Shown here: one piece after another, positions 2,404 through 8,914 of the stretch
How the letters are laid out: every line of letters begins with the position of its first letter
How positions within the stretch are numbered: position 1 is the first letter of the stretch
From: Cytobacillus oceanisediminis
GTDB taxonomy: Bacteria > Bacillota > Bacilli > Bacillales > Cytobacillaceae
Direction of reading: 5' to 3'
DNA: 64,000 nucleotides
NCBI RefSeq assembly: GCF_022811925.1
Contig: NZ_CP065511.1
Span: forward strand, 2,969,501 to 3,033,500
Notes under the pieces: model-generated
Databases searched by the model: none
Seen by the model: the letters and a program-made list of their open reading frames with translations, nothing else
Told to the model about the DNA's origin: nothing
Translations under genes and position numbers: made by a program

Positions 2404-4764
2404 TTATGCTGGTGCATCAATTTCATCTTCAGCAATGTGTTTTTCGTTATATTCCACGTCTTTGCGTGCATTGTAGCGGTCAGCTTTTTCAAGGGTAACC
2501 GTGATGTTGTAGTCAGGGATACCAGCGAATTTTTCGTAGCGGCCTCTTGGCAATAGGAAGTTTCCTTCCGGGAAGTGGACTTCGACGTTGCCGCGGGCGA
2601 TGTCGACGAATTTGGCTCTTCCCTGGAATACACCGAAGCCATTGTAAAGGACGATCCCTTCACCCTCTGCAATGCTTAAATCCTTTCCATCTTCTGCGTT
2701 CATTAGTACATCATATCGTCCGGCACCATTCAGCGGGTCCACCTCTTTATAGACCATGGAATTAAACTGCTTCCCGCGGCGTGACGTTACAATGAATTGC
2801 CCTTCTTTCTTTCCAAGGTAGGGAATGTCCACAGTAATAAGTGTGCCTTTTCCGTCCGGAGTCGGGCAGATGCCGTCCTCACATAACCATGCGCCTCCCC
2901 ACTGGAAGACATCACCTGCTTTTTTCAGGTGCTGGATGCCATCATAACTAGGGTTAGCCTCTGCAATTTCGTCACGTATTTCCTGTGCATTTTTAAATTC
3001 AACGAGATGAGCAGTTTCAGGCTTTACACGTTTGGCAAGATCAATGTAGATTTTCCACTCCTCCCGTGCCTCTTCAATTTTATTCTTATTCCCTTCAATT
3101 TCCGGGCTGAAGTACACCATCCGTTCTGTTGAGGTGGAAGTACCGCCGCCCTCCTGCTCATATCTGGTTTTAGCCGGGAGCACGATAACCGCTTCATTCG
3201 CATCAACCAGTGTAGACGTATTTAAAATAATATCCTGGTGAACGCGAATATCCAGTTCAGAAAGTGCTTTTTCGATAAAATCAGGATCTGGCATTGTCTC
3301 AAGGAAGTTACCGCCTGAAAGATAGTAAAGCTTGATTTTCCGTTCATGGTCTTCTGGGAGCAGGATATTCTCCAGTGTTACCCCGACAATATCACCCTGC
3401 CATTTCTCAAGCTCGAAGCCCCAAAGATTTTGAATGCGGGTAAAATTGTCACCGTAAAAGTCACCGCCAGGCAATACGAATGGATCTGCACCCATTTCAC
3501 CACTTCCCTGCACAGATGAATGGCCGCGGAATGGCATAAGCCCATTATGCTTTCGGCCCAGATGACCGCGAAGCAGCGCAAGATTCGCAACCTGTGAAAT
3601 GTTATCAGTCGCAAAAGAATGCATGGTAAGGCCAAGAGCCCAGGCATAGACGGCATTTTTGCTGTTCGCAAGCAGTTCCGCAAGCTCAATGATACGCTCT
3701 TTGCTTACACCAGAAGATTTAATAATCTCTTCCCAAGACTGCTCTTTCACTTTCTTTTTCAAATCTTCGTATCCATTTACATGTTCGTTCACAAATTTAT
3801 GATTGATGGCAGAACCGCGCTCCGCTTTCTCCATTTCAAACCAGTGTTTCATGATCCCATGCATAAAGGCAATGTCTCCGCCGATATTTACCTGATAAAA
3901 ATCATCTGCGATTTTTGTGCCGAACAAAGCAGATTCAGGATTTGACGGAATCCAGTATTTGTCCATCGCCGGCTCTTTATATGGATTGACGACGATAATT
4001 TTTGTGCCGTTCTTCTTCGCTTCAAGCATGTATTTGGATGATACAGGCGAGCTGTTTGATGCCACGCTGCCCCAGAATAACAGGACATCCGTTCCGATCC
4101 AGTCAAGGTAGTTGGCTGTGGAAGCCCCTACTCCAATGGAACGCTTTAAAGCGGTTTTAGAAGGCGAATGGCAAATGCGGCTCGCATTATCAATGTGATT
4201 CGTTCCCAGGAAGCGGGCAACTTTGCCGGCCACATAATAAGATTCATTCGTAATTCCGCGGCTAGTCAGGTAAAAAGCATATTGTTTTGGATCGAGCACC
4301 TTCATTTTTTCAGCAATCATATTCATGGCATCATCCCAGGTGATCCGGGAGAATTTGCGCTCTCCCTTTCTGCGGATCATCGGATAAGGAATGCGGCCCA
4401 ATTTACGAAGCTCGGTGCTGTCATATTTGCGTAGCTCATCGATATCGGCATGCAGAATTTCCGGTTTGATCGCGCCGGCAGTATTCAAACGAAGGACATT
4501 TAACCTTGTTGTACATACGTGCGGCCCCTTTAGTGTCTGGTCATAAAGACCGGAAACGCCAAGGGCACATCCGTCACACACGCCTTTCGTTAAAATATTT
4601 GTGGCATACCCAATATTATCTTTGTTTTCCCATAGGATTTTTGCTGTATCCCTCATATGCTTCGGCTTTATTTTGCCAAGCCCAAATGGAATTGGGCTCA
4701 CCCAATGCTTCGGATCCGGCATTGCCTTTTTATTCTGAGGTCCTGGATGTTTTGTTTTTCCCAC
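2404..4764 (-). CDS. FdhA-like molybdopterin oxidoreductase (YdeP/YoaE type)
   Basis: 786 residues. The GTG at 4764 is preferred over the one three codons earlier because AAGGGAG sits 8 bases before it. Early Cys63-x-x-Cys66 and Cys84 can hold an iron-sulphur cluster. Residues about 110-480 form the molybdopterin-binding body, including a DVLLFWGSVASNSSP strand and an HLGRKHNGLMPFRGHSSVQG loop. The C-terminal 120 residues are the molydopterin-dinucleotide domain. No in-frame TGA, so no selenocysteine. The family (TIGR01701-like, 'formate dehydrogenase alpha-like') is soluble and its substrate is not settled; formate oxidation is inferred partly from the neighbouring OFA transporter. A leader RNA precedes it that is homologous to the one before that transporter. 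Confidence 0.85.
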   Translation of the reverse strand: MGKTKHPGPQNKKAMPDPKHWVSPIPFGLGKIKPKHMRDTAKILWENKDNIGYATNILTKGVCDGCALGVSGLYDQTLKGPHVCTTRLNVLRLNTAGAIKPEILHADIDELRKYDSTELRKLGRIPYPMIRRKGERKFSRITWDDAMNMIAEKMKVLDPKQYAFYLTSRGITNESYYVAGKVARFLGTNHIDNASRICHSPSKTALKRSIGVGASTANYLDWIGTDVLLFWGSVASNSSPVSSKYMLEAKKNGTKIIVVNPYKEPAMDKYWIPSNPESALFGTKIADDFYQVNIGGDIAFMHGIMKHWFEMEKAERGSAINHKFVNEHVNGYEDLKKKVKEQSWEEIIKSSGVSKERIIELAELLANSKNAVYAWALGLTMHSFATDNISQVANLALLRGHLGRKHNGLMPFRGHSSVQGSGEMGADPFVLPGGDFYGDNFTRIQNLWGFELEKWQGDIVGVTLENILLPEDHERKIKLYYLSGGNFLETMPDPDFIEKALSELDIRVHQDIILNTSTLVDANEAVIVLPAKTRYEQEGGGTSTSTERMVYFSPEIEGNKNKIEEAREEWKIYIDLAKRVKPETAHLVEFKNAQEIRDEIAEANPSYDGIQHLKKAGDVFQWGGAWLCEDGICPTPDGKGTLITVDIPYLGKKEGQFIVTSRRGKQFNSMVYKEVDPLNGAGRYDVLMNAEDGKDLSIAEGEGIVLYNGFGVFQGRAKFVDIARGNVEVHFPEGNFLLPRGRYEKFAGIPDYNITVTLEKADRYNARKDVEYNEKHIAEDEIDAPA

Positions 4765-4881
4765 CTGAAACACTCCCTTGATTTTTTCTATTTAATAGAG
4801 ATCCTGAATCTCTTAATTTCCAATATTCAAATAGCCTTAATTATTGTATAAGGGTAAATGGATTAAATTTGCCCTTTTTCA

Positions 4882-8224: not shown

Positions 8225-8370
8225 ATTATTGAGCGATTAAGTATGGAGGCGTTAAGGTTCCTCAGGAATAAAAGGGAGAAAATCAGCGGCATACTTAAGC
8301 ATTATTATTGAGAAAAACAAAAAACATAGCCATAATGAGAGGATAACAACTACAAGGAAATGGAGATCTT

Positions 8371-8883
8371 ATGAAGAAAAAATTCATGATTTTATTAGCA
8401 ATCGTCCTTCTTGTTCTGACAGCCTGCGGTAAAGATCAGGCACAGGAAGCGATCACCTTAAAGGACCAAACCAGCAATGAAGTTACCTTCCCGCAGGACA
8501 AGCCAAGCGTTTTCTTCTTTATCACTACATACACCTGAGGACTCTGTCAGCAGCAACTGGTCGAGTTGCATCAGAATATGGATCAATTAGAAGGCATGGA
8601 CGTCAACATGTACATCGTCAGCCACGATCAGCCCGAGCAGCAGCTTGAGCTGTATAATGCGCTTGAAGAAAAAATGGGGCACAGCCTCCCATTTGTGTCA
8701 GACCCTGAAATGAAGCTCATTGAACGGGCTGATATGAAAAATGGCGACTCCGCCTACAGAGGCTACGCTTTAATGGATACAAAAGGCAATATTGTGTTCA
8801 ACAAGGTCAATGACCATTGGGGAGAAGAAATCGATAAAACCGCAGAAGACATAAAGAAAGAATATGAGGAGCTTTCCAAATAA
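8371..8883 (+). CDS. Thioredoxin-like lipoprotein, probable selenoprotein (in-frame TGA)
   Basis: 170 residues if the TGA at 8536-8538 is read as an amino acid. The start ATG has GGAG 8 bases upstream. Residues 1-19 form a lipoprotein signal ending in LTAC (lipid on Cys19). The body has a thioredoxin/peroxiredoxin-like order: FFFITTYT, then codon 56 = TGA, then G-L-C59-Q-Q-Q, so the motif reads U-G-L-C in place of C-x-x-C. The same frame continues for 114 codons of good coding sequence (VNMYIVSHDQ, DPEMKLIE, GNIVFNKVNDHWG), so the gene is not degraded beyond the TGA. A GGTC-loop hairpin follows at the right distance. The alternative is a recent nonsense mutation hitting a cysteine codon. Predicted role: extracytoplasmic thiol redox chemistry. 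Confidence 0.75.
8553..8569 (+). promoter_or_regulatory. SECIS-like hairpin after the in-frame TGA
   Basis: GCAACT-GGTCG-AGTTGC forms a perfect 6-bp stem with a loop starting GGTC. The loop begins 20 bases after the TGA. In the E. coli fdhF selenocysteine element the apical loop is also GGUC and lies 18 bases after UGA (established knowledge). The hairpin is inside the coding frame, as in bacteria. Confidence 0.65.
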
Positions 8884-8886
8884 AGA

Positions 8887-8914
8887 CGAAAAAAAACACG
8901 CTTGAGAGCGTGTT
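8887..8914 (-). terminator. Terminator of the holin-like toxin gene
   Basis: On the minus strand AACACGCT-CTCA-AGCGTGTT is followed by TTTTTTC. It overlaps the last base of the small toxin gene's stop codon and also lies after the selenoprotein gene on the other strand. Confidence 0.85.

Follow-up and report, generated by a model that had tools for sequence, protein, structure and literature searches.

A predicted family of exported peroxiredoxin-fold selenoproteins in the Bacillales with a covarying hairpin downstream of its UGA codon

Introduction

Among the known families of selenoproteins with selenocysteine (Sec, U) in a UxxC motif are a peroxiredoxin (Prx)-like thiol:disulfide oxidoreductase (PF00578) and a redoxin family protein (PF08534), both listed in a 2026 review (PMC13188914; this and the other papers below are cited for the portions available). 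The current study concerns a 64,000-nucleotide stretch of DNA from Cytobacillus oceanisediminis (contig NZ_CP065511.1, positions 2,969,501 to 3,033,500), termed the window, and within it a gene for a predicted lipoprotein whose reading frame contains a single in-frame TGA. The original prediction, made from the letters of the window, was that this TGA encodes Sec. The selenoprotein reading stands, and the gene is not peculiar to a single strain but belongs to a large family. Sec is very probably inserted at UGA56 into an exported redox protein of the Prx fold.

The Prx-like 1 family of the Global Ocean Sampling survey comprised 225 Sec and 2,740 cysteine (Cys) sequences, and UGSC comprised 255 Sec and 21 Cys sequences (PMC2398784); the latter counts show that Sec-dominated families have precedent. 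In a 2005 pipeline, candidates were advanced only if they had at least two Cys homologues, and the same paper describes the bacterial selenocysteine insertion sequence (SECIS) as a stem-loop with a G in its apical loop (PMC1088965). As of 2006, three selenoproteins belonging to three families were recorded for the Bacillales (PMC1794560). The available portion of PMC5029168 names no Bacillales selenoprotein of this kind, and the main text of the 2026 review contains no word beginning "Bacill". Literature searches on selenoproteins of Cytobacillus, and on selenoprotein, selenocysteine and lipoprotein in Bacillaceae, found none, and no name for the present family was found in a search that lay mostly outside subscription papers and excluded supplements.

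Results

The frame opens with ATG and reaches its only TGA at codon 56, in the context T-T-Y-T-U-G-L-C-Q-Q-Q-L-V-E-L, after which 114 sense codons precede the TAA (Table 1), so both the U-G-L-C motif and the length of the downstream frame were predicted correctly. It had also been expected that gene finders would report only a fragment from 8566; an open reading frame (ORF) of 105 aa with a TTG start is indeed present there, and databases hold such fragments.

Conservation of the TGA was examined first among 101 relatives, of which 47 genomes yielded 53 match rows. One TGA is present in 48 of these rows, and in all 48 it aligns at the column of codon 56. The five rows lacking it are an N-terminal piece from genome G010, a 34-residue fragment from G034, and three weak, distant matches: an AhpC-like protein with Thr in this column (G083), a distant redoxin with Cys encoded by TGC (locus L072 of G085), and one from G087 that lay outside the rows read. 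An order-wide search of 397 genomes, partly overlapping the first set, produced 82 matches of at least 70 bits, 81 with TGA and one a fragment covering positions 105-168; matches below 60 bits were left unread, except for L193, which has TGA, and the N-terminal piece of G010. TGA is found in 126/126 loci aligned in register (118 distinct, 48 having been fetched because of their TGA), and identity to the window protein drops to 25% within the 47-row alignment. TGC or TGT occurs in no clear family member that reaches codon 56, and Cys in this column is confined to distant redoxins (L072, the phylum-search loci L091, L100, L112 and L116, and database protein P0071). A search of plasmids gave no match to the family.

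When the search was widened to 398 genomes of the phylum, the clear members were this genome and G038, with one likely member outside the order, the short match L107 (G258). Among the phylum loci, of which 27 of the 30 fetched are listed, three fall short of column 56, and the non-members are redoxins in which that column holds Thr, Pro or Cys. L107 reads T-U-S-A-C-L-Q-Q-L-V-E-L, with TGA and the hairpin described below, and probably represents a remote family member. In the distant L193 (G581:C15:245639-246359; 49.6 bits), the TGA stands in column 56, and one stem pair has U-A in place of the C-G found elsewhere, both partners having changed in compensation. In L101, L108 and L110, peroxiredoxins of other lineages, TGA occupies the peroxidatic position (TxxU), as in a known type of Prx selenoprotein.

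All four genes that the original prediction proposed looking for are present in the genome, scattered across one chromosome. The tRNA-Sec gene (selC) scored 60.3 bits, the sole match above the family cut-off among 22, and was called SeC(tca) by ARAGORN, while the genome search gave one match each above cut-off for selB (377 bits), selA (551 bits) and selD (422 bits). The selD gene (L019, G000:C1:2612275-2613201) has an in-frame TGA of its own in the motif G-G-U-G-C, followed by the hairpin-like CGCAGGTTCTGCG, and is itself a TGA-containing selenoprotein gene. The genome has 10 formate dehydrogenase-like match rows, some probably representing parts of a single gene; all are free of in-frame stops, and therefore no Sec formate dehydrogenase was found here. 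A formate dehydrogenase-like molybdopterin oxidoreductase, free of in-frame TGA, lies within the window at 2404-4773.

Across the 101 relatives, selA exceeds its curated cut-off in 73, and the earlier remark that selenoproteins are uncommon in Bacillaceae does not fit this lineage. Every one of the 43 genomes with a TGA copy has selA, and none of the 28 genomes lacking selA carries such a copy (Fisher p 7e-9, a statistic that ignores relatedness).

Beginning 14 nt after the UGA, GCAACU pairs with AGUUGC around the five-base loop GGUCG. The perfect hairpin of the original prediction is accordingly retained in its six-pair stem, although its loop had been given as GGTC. The distance had been likened to that of the E. 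coli fdhF element, the exact spacing of which was not found in the available portions of PMC4513850 and PMC8659212. In a 27-nt fold, the hairpin forms at -8.0 kcal/mol (z -1.94), with 7/200 shuffles as good. It is a stem-loop just 3' of the UGA whose apical loop contains a G, as described for bacterial SECIS elements, and this G8560 is found in 118/118 loci and the adjacent U8561 in 114/118.

Comparison among homologues bears most directly on the stem. Pair 8556:8566 falls at synonymous positions (CAA...TTG or CAG...CTG), where A-U or G-C is found in 113/118 loci, G-U in five and a broken pair in none; permuting codons for the same residues gave a mean of 60.2 strict pairs and a maximum of 79 in 2,000 draws, against the 113 observed. 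A tree built from 117 proteins requires 15 or more changes of this pair, and in 11 independent contrasts on supported branches a mean of 9.6 over 200 pairings were concordant and none opposite (median p 0.002); for the control columns listed (14, 35 and 38), the median p was 1. Pairing holds in 98.6% of cells over 100 distinct sequences, compared to 8-37% when the partner is slid. The covariation score, the number of paired cells and the number of cells changed on both sides were each reached by 0/500 shuffles, and the number of pairs changed on both sides by 2/500. Other positions follow the same pattern to varying extents: pair 8553:8569 changes from G-C to U-A in 18/118, the loop-internal pair 8559:8562 covaries as well (98% standard pairs), and for the hardly variable pair 8557:8565 the observed value was reached by 17/2,000 permutations. 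Tree tests of 8559:8562 and 8553:8569 were concordant in direction, with too few cases for significance, and no consistent pairing was found across homologues below the 6-bp stem. The hairpin is thus a covarying SECIS, and the Q-L-V-x-L stretch of the protein may be partly shaped by RNA structure.

The protein scores 51.9 bits against Pfam AhpC-TSA (PF00578), over the gathering score of 26, and its predicted fold is that of a peroxiredoxin; this match and the alignment to AhpC 5y63 refine what had first been called a thioredoxin-like lipoprotein. Matches from a PDB sequence search with the single protein were all weak. Sec56 aligns with the Thr/Ser of the peroxiredoxin (T/S)xxC, Cys59 with the peroxidatic Cys and Arg130 with the catalytic Arg. 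Relative to PxxxT/SxxC plus catalytic Arg, which we take to be the canonical peroxiredoxin motif, Pro is replaced by Thr52 and Thr/Ser by Sec56, while the Cys and Arg positions are kept. Both a PF00578 domain and UxxC, which together characterize the Prx-like UxxC selenoproteins, are present. The predicted signal peptide ends, by eye, in L-T-A-C19, presumably a lipobox, and the near-invariance of this Cys suggests an exported lipoprotein.

Current databases represent the family mostly as fragments. A set of 5.8 billion proteins, queried with the single protein, yielded 34 relatives. Most (28) have lengths of 94-109 residues, five have 168-173 and one has 135; those with names are called redoxin domain-containing, peroxiredoxin, AhpC or hypothetical. 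A profile search returned 72 database proteins (P0002-P0073), and the 33 that reach column 56 have W (31), Y (P0064) or C (P0071) there. The W probably reflects TGA misread as Trp, and P0071 is a remote relative (23% identity), although no closer Cys protein was found. No NCBIfam model reached its cut-off for the window protein, and the commonest NCBIfam matches over the 47 members, counted at E 0.001 with scores shown for the first member only, were AhpC (46), SelL-related (43) and thiol peroxidase (41).

Table 1. Features of the predicted selenoprotein gene, in window positions.
Feature	Position	Strand	Basis
Predicted selenoprotein gene, 170 aa + stop, UGA56 as Sec	8371..8883	+	Frame; homologues with identical TGA
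Likely ribosome-binding site, GGAG	8362..8365	+	Read from sequence
Predicted signal peptide with terminal lipobox L-T-A-C (Cys19)	8371..8427	+	By eye; Cys19 conserved in at least 90% of the 47-row alignment
UGA codon as predicted Sec56, position 1 of U-G-L-C	8536..8538	+	Frame, homologue alignment
Cys59 codon, peroxidatic-Cys position of peroxiredoxins	8545..8547	+	Invariant in 47/47; alignment to AhpC 5y63
SECIS hairpin: stem 8553-8558/8564-8569, loop 8559-8563, apical GU 8560-8561	8553..8569	+	Comparison, folding
Arg130 codon, catalytic-Arg position of peroxiredoxins	8758..8760	+	Invariant in 47/47; aligned with Prx Arg

Neighbouring genes match in 10 of 13 named loci, and L084-L086 share only this gene within the first 20 kb of the window; genomic context therefore gives no function. 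Just 3' of the gene, an inverted repeat at 8896-8913 preceded by an A-run is perhaps a terminator of the other strand (by eye). The window begins with a 6S RNA on the minus strand (1-174), cut by the window edge. One record, L078, is named Pseudomonas sp. ISL-84 and is syntenic with the Cytobacillus window, and therefore its name looks wrong.

Discussion

Comparison indicates with very high likelihood that UGA56, conserved and accompanied by the SECIS and the complete Sec machinery of the genome, is a Sec codon, and several inferences can be made regarding how the system would work. Firstly, SelB carrying Sec-tRNA would bind the apical GU of the hairpin and decode the UGA. Secondly, the protein would cross the membrane and be held by a lipid anchor at Cys19 on the outer face. 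Thirdly, Sec56 and Cys59, with Arg130 close to the active site, would form a redox pair cycling via a selenylsulfide. The likeliest role would be reduction of peroxides or oxidised groups at the cell surface, and a membrane thiol relay would carry out re-reduction.

A number of observations weigh against this interpretation. Cys in P0071 and in the weak match L072, as well as Tyr in P0064, occupy column 56. The gene of G010 (L055) is split over two frames and that of G034 is only a fragment; as selA is present in both genomes, these broken copies suggest loss under way or assembly error (G591 also has a frameshifted or fragmentary copy). No TGA copy is found in 30 of the 73 genomes with selA, so this gene is not the sole client of the Sec system. 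A 71-nt fold prefers another structure, the hairpin not being that of minimum energy (z +1.12); folding of a single sequence is therefore insufficient support in itself, and it is comparison that supplies it. Within the comparison, the number of pair types is unremarkable (reached by 200/500 shuffles) and the outer pair 8553:8569 fails in 8/118. A covariance model of the element, which scores this site at 65.4 bits, found no second credible element in its own genome, and therefore the selD element must have a different layout. The one other site (21.5 bits, E 0.6) was taken as chance, since its frame stops four codons past the TGA. Phe replaces the lipobox Cys in L059, L060 and L061, a paralogue group perhaps exported or anchored differently. 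Lastly, peroxidase activity, partner and substrate are read from fold and motif only.

The last point is the one on which a competing explanation fares best. Sec may be inserted and the protein may nonetheless be a thioredoxin-like thiol (selenol)-disulfide oxidoreductase whose substrates are exported proteins, with Sec56 attacking disulfides and Cys59 resolving them. Replacement of the Prx Thr/Ser by Sec is what creates the UxxC motif, and Table 1 of the 2026 review (PMC13188914) places the known Prx-like UxxC selenoproteins among the thiol:disulfide oxidoreductases. However, the observed invariance of both the Arg and the Cys in the peroxidatic place would be needless in a pure thioredoxin. 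We regard the oxidoreductase as a serious contender that falls somewhat short of an even chance, and a peroxidase reaction, judged from fold and motif, as about evenly poised.

The explanations that dispense with Sec fare far worse. That the downstream part is a separate product starting near 8557-8566 would agree with the short database ORFs, but such a start lies inside the hairpin and the fragment would lack the first strands of the fold as well as Sec56 and Cys59, making this very improbable. Still less credible is the reading of UGA as another amino acid such as Trp: the W of the database proteins looks like the product of gene calling under a different code, TGA copies are restricted to selA genomes, and the covarying hairpin lies at the expected site of a bacterial SECIS. 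The least probable of all is that TGA is an ordinary stop in a decaying pseudogene or the end of a 55-residue peptide, since, despite the fragmentary database entries and the frameshifted G010 copy, the TGA and its intact flanking frame persist to about 25% identity and the protein sequence after the TGA is conserved.

Given insertion of Sec into an exported Prx-fold protein as the preferred reading, the gene probably represents a Bacillales family that is exported, Sec-only as far as seen and not annotated as selenoprotein. It adds to the known selenoproteins a family without a found name, and a pipeline demanding Cys homologues would miss such a family (PMC1088965). It further provides a clean comparative example of a SECIS. 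These bacilli are aerobic. The occurrence of Sec in many Bacillales runs contrary to the view that aerobic bacteria seldom keep selenoproteins (PMC13188914), and what maintains Sec in such bacteria becomes a question that a harmless bacillus can serve to test. One tentative and rather doubtful answer is that essentially obligate-Sec, exported Prx-fold lipoproteins across the Bacillales are a main client helping these spore formers to retain their Sec machinery; the usual client, Sec formate dehydrogenase, is missing at least here.

When compared to described systems, the family shares the AhpC-TSA domain, UxxC and a downstream SECIS with the Prx-like UxxC selenoproteins, including Prx-like 1 and 3 of the ocean survey, whereas Cys members far outnumber Sec members there and no close Cys form was found here. 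With the AhpE, PrxQ and AhpC peroxiredoxins it has in common the fold and the positions of the peroxidatic Cys and the Arg, but it differs in having Sec for the catalytic Thr/Ser, Thr52 for the motif Pro and a lipoprotein-like signal. NF053656 (redoxin_TUGYCR (seleno)protein) is likewise a UxxC selenoprotein with a thioredoxin-like fold, yet the window protein scores 19.7 bits against its cut-off of 100, and 17/47 members match it at E 0.001. The match to NF040769 (SelL-related redox protein), confined to residues 36-126, is similarly weak, at 28.9 bits where the cut-off is 120, with 43/47 members matching at E 0.001. These genes probably constitute a new family among the UxxC peroxiredoxin-like selenoproteins.
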